From the NCBI RefSeq assembly GCF_003258835.1, contig NZ_NPEV01000001.1:124001-188000 (forward strand): a DNA stretch of 64,000 nt, given 5' to 3'. Under the pieces are notes generated by a model, which had not been told where the DNA came from, searched no databases, and saw only the letters and a list, made by a program, of their open reading frames with translations. The translations under genes were made by a program, and so were the position numbers. Of the stretch, positions 45,354 to 54,938 are shown piece by piece. The stretch comes from Rhodobium orientis. GTDB lineage: Bacteria > Pseudomonadota > Alphaproteobacteria > Rhizobiales > Rhodobiaceae. Position 1 is the first letter of the stretch. The number at the start of each line of letters is the position of its first letter.

Positions 45354-48872
<3,519 letters not shown>

Positions 48873-49018: not shown

Positions 49019-49396
49019 CTACCCGGCGTTTTTGCCGGCATCGAGGGGCGTTTCCACGGCGATGCCGTCGGCCTTTTGCGCATCGGCGGCGAGTTCCGGC
49101 TCGAGCGGGCCGGAATGGGCCTCCAGGTCGCCGCCCGGTGCGACCGCGACGACCAGTTCGCCATCGAAATCGGTGACGCCCTTGGACAGCGCATAACAGG
49201 CGAGGCGGACGGATTTGGGGATCGTCACCTTCTTGCCGTCGCGTCTGCCCTTTTCGTAGTACTGGATCATCCGCTTTTTCAGGCCGAGTGCGTCTGCGGC
49301 GTCCTTCTGCTTCCAGCCGAGGGCCCTGCGCCAGGCGCGGAATTTCTCCGGGCTCATCGGGATATCGTCGTCGCCGGATTTTTCAGCTTTTTTCAT
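49019..49396 (-). CDS. XRE-type HTH regulator
   Basis: 125 residues from the ATG at 49396 (in-frame starts also at 49438 and 49480). HTH at about 14-75: FRAWRRALGWKQKDAADALG, KKRMIQYYEKGRRDGKKV, followed by an acidic Ala/Gly-rich tail with no known domain. A GCAC-N3-GTGC palindrome lies 35 bp in front of this start, and further copies precede the small-protein genes on the other strand, so this protein is the natural candidate to bind them and to control itself. Binding has not been shown. Confidence 0.75.
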   Translation of the reverse strand: MKKAEKSGDDDIPMSPEKFRAWRRALGWKQKDAADALGLKKRMIQYYEKGRRDGKKVTIPKSVRLACYALSKGVTDFDGELVVAVAPGGDLEAHSGPLEPELAADAQKADGIAVETPLDAGKNAG

Positions 49397-49430
49397 GGAA
49401 ACGCGCAATTCGGAATCGGATGCGGCATCA

Positions 49431-49494
49431 GCGCACATTGTGCACCCTGGGCGTTGACAGAGGCGCACCGAGTACGCCAACGTGCACTCAGTGC
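49431..49494 (+). promoter_or_regulatory. Left operator cluster and promoter of small gene A
   Basis: Palindromic cores GCAC-ATT-GTGC at 49433-49443 and GCAC-TCA-GTGC at 49484-49494, plus a one-mismatch copy GCAC-CGA-GTAC at 49465-49475. A consensus -35 box TTGACA at 49454-49459 sits 21 bp after the first core start and 11 bp before the degenerate one, exactly as in the right cluster. The -10 position (49477-49482) is poor. Confidence 0.6.
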
Positions 49495-49566
49495 TAGTGA
49501 AGTCCGAATGGGCCTACGGAGTCAATAGAGTCTCCGCAAACGTCGTGGGTTCGCAGCGGGGGCGCA

Positions 49567-49580
49567 GGCTCGAACGAGCC
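49567..49580 (+). promoter_or_regulatory. Hairpin abutting the ribosome site of small gene A
   Basis: GGCTC-GAAC-GAGCC, directly followed by GGGAGG and the ATG of gene A seven bases later. It could affect translation. Confidence 0.4.
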
Positions 49581-49593
49581 GGGAGGAACGCAA

Positions 49594-49719
49594 ATGCTAG
49601 CTGACCTCATCATAGGACGGGCGATGGTCGCTCCGCACGGGATCGATGTCCATCGGCATGCGACATTTTCCTGCAGCATGGCGCGCCTGATCCGCAAGGT
49701 ACTGAATTTCGGCGCCTGA
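49594..49719 (+). CDS. Small basic protein A of a three-member paralogous cluster
   Basis: 41 residues, found by eye. Start ATG 49594 with a strong RBS (GGGAGG, seven bases away); stop TGA 49717-49719. It aligns without gaps over its whole length with protein B at 50121 (also 41 residues): shared M1, R9, D18-V19-H20, A23, C27 and A41, with like residues elsewhere (LIIG/ILVA, LIRKV/FKRIR). This is the most diverged copy. The centre is hydrophobic with a basic C-terminal helix. No known family comes to mind. Confidence 0.6.
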   Translation: MLADLIIGRAMVAPHGIDVHRHATFSCSMARLIRKVLNFGA

Positions 49720-49976
49720 CGGCCGCGTCCCGCGGTCGGGCGCCCGGCACAGGTTTCCCGCATTTGCCGGCGTGCGACATGCCGGTTTTCCATCCTTTTC
49801 GATCCGCTCGGACGGCCGCCGGCGTGGCGCGCCGCCGCCGGCCCGGTGAGTCGCGGCGCGGACCCTTCTCAAGGCCGCCAATCCGCCAGGGTGTGCGGTT
49901 TCCATCCTCCAATGCCTGATTGTGAAGCGGCGGCCGCGGGAAACGCGGGAACCATTTACCGTGTTCGGCGCTAATT

Positions 49977-50052
49977 GCGCACAGTGTGCATTTTTTAACT
50001 TGAAATAGTGGCACTCTGTGCGTATCTATCGTTTCGAAGATGCACCAAGTGC
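49977..50052 (+). promoter_or_regulatory. Right operator cluster before small gene B
   Basis: Three perfect GCAC-N3-GTGC cores at 49979-49989 (AGT), 50011-50021 (TCT) and 50042-50052 (CAA). Start-to-start spacings are 32 and 31 bp, three helical turns, so all face the same side of the DNA. The middle one lies between the -35 and -10 boxes and the last lies just after the predicted mRNA start, the usual places for repressor binding. Confidence 0.7.
50000..50028 (+). promoter_or_regulatory. Candidate promoter of small gene B
   Basis: TTGAAA at 50000-50005, a 17-bp spacer that holds an operator, and TATCTA at 50023-50028. It predicts a leader of about 85 nt. Confidence 0.5.
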
Positions 50053-50067
50053 ACCCGAGAACGACAA

Positions 50068-50101
50068 CCTCCCCTCAAGAGGGAGGCCCGGCGACGCCGG
50101 G
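50068..50101 (+). promoter_or_regulatory. Two stacked hairpins in the gene B leader
   Basis: CCTCCC...GGGAGG (50068-50073 with 50081-50086) and CCCGGC-GAC-GCCGGG (50087-50101) lie just before the ribosome site AAGGAG at 50108-50113. Gene A has a hairpin in the equivalent place. Confidence 0.5.
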
Positions 50102-50120
50102 AGACACAAGGAGAAGAAAA

Positions 50121-50246
50121 ATGGCCGTCAACATTCTTGTTGCGCGCAGCTATATGGGGCACCGCAAGGTGGACGTTCACACGTCCGCGCTGGTCTGGTG
50201 CAAGCTGAATGCCGCCTTCAAGCGGATCCGCGGGCTGTTCGCCTGA
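50121..50246 (+). CDS. Small basic protein B
   Basis: 41 residues. Start ATG 50121 with AAGGAG eight bases upstream. Pattern NILVARSYMGHRKVDVHTSA then WCKLNAAFKRIR, shared almost fully with protein C at 50453 (NILVARSYFGQRKINLHNTA, WCKLTSAYKRIR). Predicted amphipathic, positively charged and too short for a signal peptide. The promoter is overlaid by operators (49977-50052) and a terminator follows at 50271, so it is a one-gene transcript. Function unknown; I cannot place it in a described family. Options include a membrane-active, nucleic-acid-binding or regulator-binding microprotein. Confidence 0.75.
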   Translation: MAVNILVARSYMGHRKVDVHTSALVWCKLNAAFKRIRGLFA

Positions 50247-50270
50247 CACGACGCGAACCTTGACCTGTGA

Positions 50271-50304
50271 ACGAAAGGGCGCGGCCTCGGCTGCGCCCTT
50301 TCGT
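50271..50304 (+). terminator. Terminator of small gene B
   Basis: A 12-bp stem, ACGAAAGGGCGC/GCGCCCTTTCGT, loop GGCCTCGGCT-like, then TGTTT. The loop sequence is shared with the terminator of gene C. Confidence 0.82.
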
Positions 50305-50452
50305 TGTTTCCACGGGGAGGCCCATGCGACGGGGCGGCAGGCGCGGGGCCGAAATCGTCACGGTAAGCGCGCGCTAACCTAACATATGCACGAATTCACA
50401 ACTTCAAGATTGTATTTTGCGGATGACCACCGGCAGACACGAGGATGAGCAG

Positions 50453-50602
50453 ATGGCTCTCAACATTCTGGTTGCCCGCAGCTATTTCGGACAGCGCAAG
50501 ATCAACTTGCACAACACCGCAGTGGCCTGGTGCAAGCTGACCTCCGCCTATAAGCGTATCCGTCGGACCTTCGCCTGGCGGCTCCCAATTTCCGATGCAT
50601 GA
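50453..50602 (+). CDS. Small basic protein C
   Basis: 49 residues. ATG 50453 after GAGGATGAGCAG. About 25 of the first 40 positions equal protein B; it has an extra C-terminal tail WRLPISDA. The core residues R9, H20, A23, W26, C27, K28, L29 and KRIR are kept. Upstream there is only a half-operator (TGCAC at 50387-50391), so its control may differ from that of A and B. Its terminator starts two bases past the stop. Confidence 0.72.
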   Translation: MALNILVARSYFGQRKINLHNTAVAWCKLTSAYKRIRRTFAWRLPISDA

Positions 50603-50604
50603 GC

Positions 50605-50643
50605 GACAAGGGCGTGGCCTCGGCCGCGCCCTTTCGTCGTTTT
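50605..50643 (+). terminator. Terminator of small gene C
   Basis: AAGGGCG (50608-50614) pairs with CGCCCTT (50627-50633), extended by GAC/GTC, then CGTTTTC. The GTGGCCTCGGCCG loop matches that of the gene B terminator, so gene and terminator were duplicated together. Confidence 0.75.
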
Positions 50644-52344: not shown

Positions 52345-53568
52345 TTACCCCGCGGCGCGGGCTTCGCCCGGTGCCGGGCGCTCGGCGACGGTCGCCTCGT
52401 TCTTGCGCTCACGAATGAGGTTGACGAAGCGGGTCATCAAATAGTGGCTGTCCTGCGGGCCGGGGGAGGCCTCCGGGTGGTACTGGACGGAGAATACCGG
52501 CCGGTCCTTCAGCTTCAGCCCGCAATTGGACCCGTCGAACAGCGAGACATGGGTCTCCTCCACGTCCGCCGGCAGGCTGTCGCGGTCGACGGCGAAGCCG
52601 TGGTTCATGGAGGTGATCTCCACCTTGCCGGTGGTGTGGTCCTTGACCGGATGGTTGGCGCCGTGGTGGCCCTGGTGCATCTTCTTGGTGGCGCCGCCGA
52701 GGGCAAGCGCCAGCATCTGGTGGCCGAGGCAGATGCCGAAGACCGGCAGGCCGCTGTCGACGAGCTTCTTGATTTCCGGCACGGCATATTCACCCGTCGC
52801 CGCCGGATCGCCCGGACCGTTGGACAGGAACACGCCGTCCGGGTTGAGGGCGAGGATGTCGTCCGCCTTGGTCTCGGCCGGCACCACCGTCAGCTTGCAG
52901 CCTTCGCCGGCGAGCAGGCGCAGGATGTTGCGCTTGATGCCGTAGTCGACGGCGACGACGTGGTGGACCGGCTCTTCCATGCGCCCAAAACCCTTGCCGA
53001 ATTCCCAGGGCGTCTCGTCCCAGGAAAAGCGCTGGGCGGAGGTCACCATCGGCACCAGGTCCATGCCCTCAAGGCCCGGCCAGGCGGCGGCCTCGGCCTT
53101 CAGCCGCTCGAGGTCGAACTTGCCGTCCGGGGCGTGGGCGATGACCGCGTTCGGCATGCCGGCCTCGCGGATGAGTGCGGTGAGGGCGCGGGTGTCGATG
53201 CCGGCAAGGCCGACGATGTCGCGGGCTTTCAGCCAGGCGTCGAGGTGCTTGCCGGCGCGCCAGTTGGACGGGTCGGTGACCTCGGTCTTGGTGATGCAGC
53301 CGCGCACGCCGGAGGATCCGGCCATGCTGACCGTCTCGATGTCCTCGTCGTTGGTGCCGACATTGCCGATATGGGGGAAGGTGAAGGTGATGATCTGTCC
53401 GGCATAGGAGGGATCGGTCATGATCTCCTGGTAGCCGGTCATCGCCGTGTTGAAGCAGACCTCGCCGACGGCCTCGCCGACGGCGCCGTAGCCGATCCCC
53501 TCAATCACGGTTCCGTCTGCGAGCACGAGCACCCCGGTCGGGCGCGGGTCTTGCCATGGGTCGGTCAT
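52345..53568 (-). CDS. carA: Carbamoyl-phosphate synthase small subunit
   Basis: 407 residues. N-terminal CarA domain (LVLADGTVIEGIGYGAVG, FNTAMTGYQEIMTDPSYAGQ), then class I glutamine amidotransferase with nucleophile Cys in FGICLGHQMLALALGG and His-Glu in SVQYHPEASPGP. It hydrolyses glutamine and passes ammonia to CarB. Start at ATG 53566-53568; the frame runs further upstream without support. Divergent from yqeY. Confidence 0.96.
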   Translation of the reverse strand: MTDPWQDPRPTGVLVLADGTVIEGIGYGAVGEAVGEVCFNTAMTGYQEIMTDPSYAGQIITFTFPHIGNVGTNDEDIETVSMAGSSGVRGCITKTEVTDPSNWRAGKHLDAWLKARDIVGLAGIDTRALTALIREAGMPNAVIAHAPDGKFDLERLKAEAAAWPGLEGMDLVPMVTSAQRFSWDETPWEFGKGFGRMEEPVHHVVAVDYGIKRNILRLLAGEGCKLTVVPAETKADDILALNPDGVFLSNGPGDPAATGEYAVPEIKKLVDSGLPVFGICLGHQMLALALGGATKKMHQGHHGANHPVKDHTTGKVEITSMNHGFAVDRDSLPADVEETHVSLFDGSNCGLKLKDRPVFSVQYHPEASPGPQDSHYLMTRFVNLIRERKNEATVAERPAPGEARAAG

Positions 53569-53887
53569 GATGCTGATTTTCCGTCCGAAACTGTTGTCTT
53601 GACTGCCGCCGCGCCGCGCGCCAGGCGCGCAATCGCTCTCACCAAGAGCTTCCTTGCCGCGGAACTCCCTTGCGATGGCTGGCGTTACCGTGATGACAGA
53701 TGGGGTTCGCCCGCCCGGACTCAAGGCGTTCGAGCGCCAGAGACTAGGCCAAGGCGAATCTCTCGTCAATAGGCGCGAAAAATAAAAGCTGTATATAAAT
53801 CAAACAGTTAATCCAGGGGAAGCTTGCCAGGACGGGGTTTTTCGGTGTAATTTCCAAAACTCGGTCCACGACATCCCGAGGTGGGTC
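53569..53887. other. carA-yqeY divergent promoter region
   Basis: No gene. An AT-rich core at about 53778-53812 (AAAATAAAAGCTGTATATAA, then ATCAAACAGTTAATCC) is the likely site of both promoters. Confidence 0.5.
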
Positions 53888-54361: not shown

Positions 54362-54679
54362 TCAGGCGTCCTCGGCCTCGTTCTTGCGATGCTCCATATA
54401 GGAGCGCAGCACCTGATTGATGCGGGTCTGATAGCCGCGTCCCTCCTGCTTGAAGAAATCGAGCACATCGGCGTCGAGGCGGATGGACACCGCCTTCTTG
54501 GGCGCCGGGACGACCAGCACGGCCTTCGACCAGTCTATGTCGAGCAGCCCCTCCCAGTCGGGATCCTCGCGGGCGGCGCGCTCGATCTCCTCATCGGTCA
54601 GGTTTTTGACCCGTTCCCAATCGGTCTTGCCCTTCACCTTCGAGCCAGCGGATCGCCTGATGATATGCTCGTCGTTCAT
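54362..54679 (-). CDS. brnA: BrnA-type antitoxin
   Basis: 105 residues. Acidic middle (TDEEIERAAREDPDWEGL) and C-terminal DNA-binding module VSIRLDADVLDFFKQEGRGY, QTRINQVLRSYMEHR. It neutralises BrnT and represses the operon. Its start lies inside brnT: the frames overlap by 89 bp, far more than usual. Confidence 0.88.
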   Translation of the reverse strand: MNDEHIIRRSAGSKVKGKTDWERVKNLTDEEIERAAREDPDWEGLLDIDWSKAVLVVPAPKKAVSIRLDADVLDFFKQEGRGYQTRINQVLRSYMEHRKNEAEDA

Positions 54680-54938
54680 TTTTTCGTGCCCTTCGTGCCG
54701 AGATCACACGACAGTTTTGGTTGCGGATGGTGTAGATGACAGCGATCTCCACCCCCTCGAGAAGGCCGATAGCAAGGAGGCGTTCTTCGTCGGGAAAATC
54801 GCAAGGATCAACGAGGTGCGGTTGCTCGAATACCGAGATCGCATCGTCAAAATCGAAGCCGTGCTTTTCCAGATTGGATTCGCTTTTGCGCTCATTCCAC
54901 TCAAATTCTGGAAATTCTTGGCTCTCCAAAAATCTCAT
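54591..54938 (-). CDS. brnT: BrnT-type toxin (RelE-fold ribonuclease)
   Basis: 115 residues; BrnT is normally about 90. Family motifs: FEWNERKSESNLEKHGFDFDDA, ERLLAIGLLEG and RVISARRARKNERRAYHQ with the catalytic Arg/Glu residues of this RelE-like RNase. The extra C-terminal 20 residues (after RAYHQAIRWLEG) come from reading into brnA in another frame. brnT precedes brnA, the normal order. An AT-rich palindrome sits 35 bp upstream. Confidence 0.87.
   Translation of the reverse strand: MRFLESQEFPEFEWNERKSESNLEKHGFDFDDAISVFEQPHLVDPCDFPDEERLLAIGLLEGVEIAVIYTIRNQNCRVISARRARKNERRAYHQAIRWLEGEGQDRLGTGQKPDR

Follow-up and report, generated by a model that had tools for sequence, protein, structure and literature searches.

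What controls a set of very small genes that lie beside an XRE-type regulator gene, and to what family do they belong? The question is raised by a 64,000-nucleotide stretch of the Rhodobium orientis genome (the window), in which the original prediction, made from the letters alone, had described three paralogous microprotein genes (A, B and C) next to a regulator gene and had proposed that the regulator represses itself and all three genes through palindromic operator cores of the form GCAC-N3-GTGC. We compared this locus with relatives in the same order and class, with solved structures and with phage sequences. The best-supported reading, on grounds of homology, geometry and co-occurrence, is that the regulator, here called XRE, reads GCAC-N3-GTGC and silences the promoter of the microprotein (MP). 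We thus consider it quite probable that a chromosomal, Aca1-like helix-turn-helix (HTH) repressor silences a new microprotein family.

A regulator, its operators and a microprotein in Hyphomicrobiales

Profiles of XRE (cut-off E <= 1e-10) and of 30 MPs (E <= 1e-4) were run against 397 genomes of the order Hyphomicrobiales, and the best 80 of 151 XRE relatives were taken as named loci. Both the small proteins and the palindromes are conserved in relatives among these genomes. The XRE profile matched 105 genomes and the MP profile 53; XRE was present in 51 of the 53 MP genomes, as against 54 of the 344 without a detected MP. Whether the microproteins always adjoin this type of regulator, as the original prediction had asked, can be answered with nearly always: 55 of 57 MP matches lie within 1.3 kb of an XRE match.

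The operator core was scored in a strict (GCAC-N3-GTGC) and a relaxed form (GCA[AC]-N3-[GT]TGC). Close core pairs occur in 52 genomes (reversed control, 12), and 52 of the 71 places listed (67 examined plus four in genome G334) adjoin an XRE. A strict pair stands at XRE in 41 genomes, 38 of them with a detected MP; in G182 the MP at such a pair is a diverged one. Over the 80 named loci, the 370 bp at the XRE start hold 88 cores, against 22 in the remaining ca. 584 kb, a 79-fold higher density. At least one core lies near the XRE start in 55 of the 80, and 27 of 33 adjacent core spacings measure 28-33 bp. The operator array appears to be linked to the MP: across 79 of these loci (L026 was dropped, its upstream DNA being missing), two or more relaxed cores are present in all 29 MP loci and in none of the 50 MP-less loci, 37 of which have one core and 13 none, and with strict cores the corresponding figures are 24 of 29 and 0 of 50. 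Judged by these comparisons, XRE, GCAC-N3-GTGC operators and a ca. 40-residue MP form a conserved module in many Hyphomicrobiales, usually near carB.

A carB homolog follows XRE on the same strand at 70 of the 80 loci, and a carA homolog lies upstream, within the fetched flank, at 63; the usual place is thus between two genes of the arginine/pyrimidine pathways. Neither gene is present in the flanks fetched for seven loci, in some of which the contig runs out. At L021, L039, L064 and L079 the XRE-MP pair stays together in fetched flanks without carA or carB, so the pair looks like the unit. Hosts of the module include Cohaesibacter, Afifella, Pseudovibrio, Breoghania and Amorphus. The MP profile was drawn largely from the same named loci and misses diverged MPs, among them ORFs (open reading frames) of the MLNHLVLGQSL type that adjoin XRE in G099, G182, G205 and G225.

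A search for MPs encoded in trans covered 44 of the 54 XRE genomes without a detected MP, plus genomes G157 and G040, and gave matches in 18 of the 46. In Amorphus coralli (G018, locus L040) and its congener G130, XRE and an MP-like ORF (MLNELVLGRALY...) are on different contigs. The MP-like ORF carries a pair of cores, in strict form in G018 and in relaxed form in G130; at XRE one core is left in G018 and none in G130. This arrangement suggests that the operator pair goes with the MP.

Mainly vertical, chromosomal inheritance is the best reading for XRE. The XRE query had no match in plasmid records and matched two phage records at 36.6% identity, one of which, inspected over 3.2 kb, has no core; one MP query matched neither plasmid nor phage records, and a mobile origin was rejected on these results. 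Class-wide, XRE relatives are found in 23 of 289 genomes, the window's genome included. Within 500 bp, six of nine class-level loci hold one or more cores, strict or relaxed, and the nine show no clear MP and one candidate, at L202. At this locus, from another order, two cores separated by 31 bp accompany an XRE relative, and a divergent 50-amino acid (aa) ORF (MLKNMMYWLSFG...) may be a distant MP-like gene outside Hyphomicrobiales.

The MP genes have the marks of coding sequence. A Shine-Dalgarno-like motif precedes 55 of 58 distinct MP genes, and 50 non-independent MP pairs show 635 synonymous and 482 nonsynonymous differences, with a median pN/pS of 0.27 (19 versus 4 in the pair L065/L127); by this measure the genes are under purifying selection. 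The predicted structure has two helices, residues 2-11 and 19-40, at moderate confidence (pLDDT 74, pTM 0.34), and the most constant residues in 30 aligned MPs are M1 and A23, followed by R9, D18 and C27. When the 30 MPs were compared with PHROGs, Pfam and NCBIfam, each matching family matched a single member (best E 0.023); a PDB sequence search returned no match at E <= 1, and PADLOC models matched none of the four MPs tested. Among the databases scanned, the MP therefore appears as a new, uncatalogued family that matches nothing known. Anti-phage defence was considered and rejected, as PADLOC has no model for the four MPs and gives weak HTH matches only for XRE.

Homology to Aca1 and the geometry of the promoters

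The XRE protein matches Pfam HTH_3 with 30.6 bits, above the gathering cut-off of 23, and its AlphaFold2 (AF2) model has helices and strands between residues 16 and 84. Alignment with hhalign to Aca1 of phage JBD30 gave 96% probability over 58 ungapped columns at 28% identity. Among solved structures, the XRE profile matched NE0471 at E 5e-6 and Aca1 at E 3e-4 (HMMER), and in Foldseek NE0471 ranked first (E 1.4e-3), ahead of C.Kpn2I and HipB; Aca1 chains came at ranks 6-8. By profile alignment, XRE is homologous to Aca1, the phage repressor of anti-CRISPR (acr) genes. The recognition helix reads LGLSDRVMRYYL in Aca1 and LGLKKRMIQYYE in XRE, and 29 aligned XREs all keep R42, Q45, Y46 and Y47. 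In Aca2, residues V17, R30, Q33, Y34 and R39 matter for promoter recognition (PMC9410881, excerpt); R30, Q33 and Y34 have the spacing of XRE R42, Q45 and Y46, and R39 would map to a variable XRE position beside the invariant R52.

Seven of 127 phage records with an Aca1 match were inspected. Five with near-identical Aca1, all Casadabanvirus (JBD5, MP29, R24, JBD30 and D3112), have exactly two GCAC-N3-GTGC cores each within the 2.5-3.1 kb fetched. The two are 25 bp apart and both precede the first aca1 operon gene, and the second starts 11 bp past the best -35 box. Only in D3112 is that first gene annotated as Acr; in the other four we presume an acr promoter from its position. The diverged Aca1 relatives in VB_EV13 (helix LGLSWPGFRNYL) and TC7 (helix IGITARALRNYV) have both lost the first Y of the R-x3-YY recognition helix, and neither phage has the core; TC7 has the palindrome GGAACAATGTTCC in its place. 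Upstream of the TC7 gene at 1275 (L215), two GGAACA-type palindromes replace the GCAC cores. That Aca1 binds these exact repeats is taken from an excerpt of PMC9410906, the title of PDB entry 7c0g and the phage sequences. According to the same excerpt, Aca proteins repress promoters via an inverted repeat in the core promoter, and such promoters have near-consensus boxes and one inverted repeat within the core promoter, sometimes with a second beside it (PMC9410906). The original prediction could match the locus to no known system; this holds for the microprotein, which matches nothing known, but phage Aca1 control offers a match for the regulator, for the operator core and for the geometry of the promoter.

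The geometry recurs across loci. Core 1 starts 20-21 bp before the best-scoring -35 box in 24 of the 29 MP loci; in 25 the distance from that box to the start of core 2 is 10-12 bp, and in 21 it is exactly 11. TTGACA-17-CATATT is the most frequent pair of boxes; with a 17-bp spacer and this offset, core 2 fills the -35/-10 spacer, as the second core does in the phages. The geometry was derived with looser scoring weights specific to this analysis and with raw TTGA counts, which agree with it; a stricter consensus sigma-70 scan returned zero promoters at its threshold in the region. On the XRE strand, the same scan over the 29 MP loci found no fixed core-to-promoter offset. Of 29 MP-less loci with a single core, 27 have a TTGACA on the XRE strand 20-21 bp past that core, an arrangement that could serve activation or repression. 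In Stappiaceae loci (for example L010, upstream of XRE) a conserved TTGACA...TTATTTYTGTCA comes after the single core and may be a further inverted repeat.

In the window, the module and its neighbours are laid out as follows.

49019..49396, minus strand: XRE/HTH regulator gene, Aca1-like, 125 aa, ATG at 49396 (ORF, Pfam, hhalign, AF2 model)
49433..49443: operator core 1 of gene A, GCACATTGTGC, 36 bp ahead of the XRE ATG; identical in the same-genus genome G001
49454..49459, plus strand: -35 box of gene A, TTGACA, with a poor -10
49465..49475: operator core 2 of gene A, one mismatch, GCACCGAGTAC; identical in G001
49484..49494: operator core 3 of gene A, GCACTCAGTGC; identical in G001
49594..49719, plus strand: microprotein gene A, 41 aa, divergent from XRE, the usual MP position in the family (ORF)
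49979..49989: operator core 1 of gene B, GCACAGTGTGC
50000..50005, plus strand: -35 box of gene B, TTGAAA
50011..50021: operator core 2 of gene B, GCACTCTGTGC, within the -35/-10 spacer
50023..50028, plus strand: -10 box of gene B, TATCTA
50042..50052: operator core 3 of gene B, GCACCAAGTGC
50121..50246, plus strand: microprotein gene B, 41 aa (ORF)
50270..50305, plus strand: terminator-like hairpin after gene B, repeated after gene C
50453..50602, plus strand: microprotein gene C, 49 aa, tandem copy of B without an operator of its own (ORF)
45354..48872, minus strand: carB, downstream neighbour on the XRE strand (ORF; named from sequence)
52345..53769, minus strand: carA (ORF taken from the first possible start; named from sequence)

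The names carA and carB are presumed from the sequences. Seven perfect cores occur in the window against 1.5 expected, and none of 100 shuffles reached seven. Within the 5.19-Mb assembly a close pair of perfect cores is found only at the module (reversed control, 0), and pairs of relaxed cores fall at the same places only (reversed control, one place); a wider regulon in this genome was rejected because close core pairs are absent elsewhere. Of the three small genes only B has the canonical promoter, with offsets of 21, -11 and -42 from its cores to the -35.

The three ORFs of the original prediction (41, 41 and 49 aa at 49594, 50121 and 50453) agree with the ORF list, and its perfect cores at 49433, 49484, 49979, 50011 and 50042 were found again, that at 49465 having one mismatch. 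The core on the XRE side does lie upstream of the gene's start, at 36 bp to the nearest edge rather than the 35 first given. The promoter layout said to be common to both clusters stands as to spacing, each -35 starting 21 bp after the first core and the next core 11 bp further; gene A departs from it in its poor -10 and in its third core, which lies 30, not 41-42, bp past the -35. The claim that gave all three small genes the operator code does not extend to gene C, upstream of which the promoter scoring scan found neither a core nor a good promoter.

Weighing repression by XRE against other readings

Under repression by XRE, dimers of the regulator would bind GCAC-N3-GTGC palindromes about three helical turns apart, perhaps cooperatively, across a sigma-70-type promoter; the core in the -35/-10 spacer would keep RNA polymerase off, and the ca. 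40-residue helical MP would be silenced. Should free repressor fall, the promoter would fire and a burst of MP would follow. A core within the -35/-10 spacer fits repression, and regulator, operators and family are conserved, so that the proposal that XRE represses the MP family survives for the operator-bearing genes, gene C standing outside it. Self-repression of XRE, also proposed, is not established: the geometry on its side is unfixed in the 29 MP loci, and the single cores of MP-less loci fit activation or repression.

Several observations weigh against this reading. Foldseek gave no match below E 0.001, and the HMMER match to Aca1 is modest; the five Aca1 phages are closely related among themselves, and their -35 boxes are weak. 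From its place near -50, core 1 might also serve activation. The relaxed pattern was drawn up only once variants in Pseudovibrio had been seen, and 13 MP genomes have no strict core pair at XRE. Conversely, G085 and G261 have a core pair at XRE where no MP was recognised, and among 12 core-pair loci inspected an MP-like ORF is missing in five (L154, L156 in G261, L181, L190 in G085, and L192). MPs occur without an XRE (E <= 1e-10) in G157 (L204) and G040 (L205), where the MP-like ORFs adjoin carA or sit between carA and carB and the surrounding 4-4.5 kb hold zero cores. XRE is found without a detected MP in 54 of its 105 genomes, of which at least four have a diverged MP adjacent and two have one elsewhere; because XRE persists in this way, it may do something else besides. 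On a tree of carB from 67 loci the MP state changes at least five times, which gives four supported independent contrasts, too few to reach significance (p 0.125); MP and core state share one joint label in them and so are not tested separately. With only four such contrasts, shared ancestry explains much of the raw agreement between MP and cores.

It is possible, if doubtful, that XRE is a lambda-type, dual-mode switch that activates from core 1 (ca. -50) at low level and represses via core 2 at high level. The 20-21 bp core-to-TTGACA spacing recurs by itself, without core 2, in the MP-less single-core loci described above, which gives the upstream core a conserved position in its own right; the MP -35 boxes, however, are mostly near consensus, and such boxes rarely need an activator, activators usually being centred near -41 or -61. 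Rather more doubtful is a double-negative switch with the MP as anti-repressor of XRE. The MP is predicted to be small and helical and is usually encoded opposite the regulator, and the title of PDB entry 9iaq names a small antirepressor of an XRE-fold repressor, but two genomes keep the MP although no XRE was detected in them, and where no MP was found the XRE domain has hardly changed.

A toxin-antitoxin-like pair, with a toxic MP and XRE as its silencer or antitoxin, seems unlikely to us. The XRE fold resembles the C-terminal HTH domains of HigA2, HipB and MqsA, XRE has weak NCBIfam matches to antitoxin models, and small ORFs, tight-looking control and three copies in the window would suit such a pair; yet the genes are divergent, not co-operonic, and XRE and MP each occur without the other detected (XRE in 54 genomes, the MP in G157 and G040). 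The MPs of G157 and G040, with neither XRE nor cores, argue against a toxin that must be silenced. One MP query had no plasmid or phage match and four MPs no PADLOC match; a co-operonic toxin of known family was not encountered, the MPs giving only chance-level single matches in Pfam and NCBIfam and, for the four compared, none in PADLOC. That the MPs are chromosomal anti-CRISPR or anti-defence proteins is highly improbable: operator core and spacer position are as in the promoters upstream of Aca1-linked phage genes, but Cas1 is present in only 18 of the 53 MP genomes, which makes an anti-CRISPR role unlikely, and the position near carB is conserved, with one MP query unmatched in plasmid and phage records.

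Silencing of the MP by an Aca1-like XRE is the reading we prefer, and we suggest tentatively, with low confidence, that the MP is a regulatory microprotein binding a partner protein, for which XRE and carbamoyl-phosphate synthase are the first candidates. On a long view that we hold to be improbable, XRE would stem from the cellular stock behind phage Aca1, would also silence incoming acr-type promoters (anti-anti-CRISPR) and would natively hold down an MP acting on a host process; such silencing of phage promoters is conceivable because they use the same GCAC-N3-GTGC code.

The closest known system is Aca1/acr control in Pseudomonas phages (JBD30; PDB 7c0g, 7fa3), with which the module shares a homologous HTH (helix LGLxxR[MV][IM]xYY), two GCAC-N3-GTGC cores, the second 11 bp after the -35, and a 17-bp spacer. 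In contrast to phage Aca1, which is encoded downstream in an acr operon on a mobile element, XRE is chromosomal, divergent from its target and usually beside carB; its target is an unrelated 40-aa protein, with no acr recognised nearby. Operator spacing is mostly 30-32 bp in the module versus 25 in the phages, and core 1 lies 20-21 bp from the -35 versus 14. XRE would work like Aca1 and is not classed as Aca1, since it agrees with Aca1 neither in operon position nor in acr association. Solo Aca-like regulators, as described in an excerpt of PMC9410906, resemble XRE in having no known acr adjacent and in being longer than phage Aca1; unlike them, the module has an identified, conserved native target and an operator array. 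In that excerpt, motifs were not always found at solo Aca promoters, only 386 of 2599 Aca-like homologs (15%) were Acr-associated, and the role of solo Acas is left open (PMC9410906).

Among solved structures NE0471 (PDB 2auw) is the best sequence and fold match of XRE, although only the C-terminal part of that protein, which has 170 residues and no known function, is matched. HTH domains of the HigA2, HipB and MqsA antitoxin type are similar in fold, but XRE has no adjacent toxin of a known family and its target is divergent and 40 aa long. SinR-SinI and ImmR-type repressors are likewise similar in fold, and a PDB title names the pairing of SinR with SinI. Repressors of the SinR and ImmR types are known to have small regulatory partner proteins; compared with SinR-SinI, the MP has no PDB sequence match, and its pairing with XRE is hypothetical. 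Searches of open-access full text for the N3 motif, the recognition helix and one operator found no paper, and theme searches gave no title on this module among the matches listed. An Aca1-like regulator with a conserved native target and operator would make the question of the solo Acas testable; the locus adds a microprotein family not yet catalogued, together with its alignments, operators and named hosts, and suggests that bacterial chromosomes, too, carry a promoter design familiar from anti-CRISPR control in phages.

Other features of the window and of single loci

Genes B and C are 63% identical and A and B only 20%, in line with the earlier description of B and C as very close and A as diverged. 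The duplication of B to give C is in tandem and includes the hairpin, and the stop of gene C lies 8 codons further than in G001 (49 versus 41 aa). Between the window and G001, synonymous/nonsynonymous differences number 3/1 in A, 1/1 in B, 4/3 in C and 22/6 in XRE, all small counts; operators and promoters are nearly identical and the A-B spacer has diverged. An Rfam scan of the region returned nothing at gathering score, and a known RNA element was rejected on that result. Two small ORFs at 54362-54938 on the minus strand may resemble a BrnT/BrnA toxin-antitoxin pair.

Two further sets of core pairs were noted. In Roseibium aquae (L192, 1501-1542), two cores 31 bp apart lie upstream of a 70-aa ORF (MARSLFEPV...), flanked by genes that we take to be trpB and trpA homologs; by eye, the -35 geometry seems to be missing there. 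G334 has core pairs at nine places (five listed), mostly GCACGAAGTGC...GCACGAAGTGC with a similar spacer, which look like a dispersed repeat unrelated to the module.

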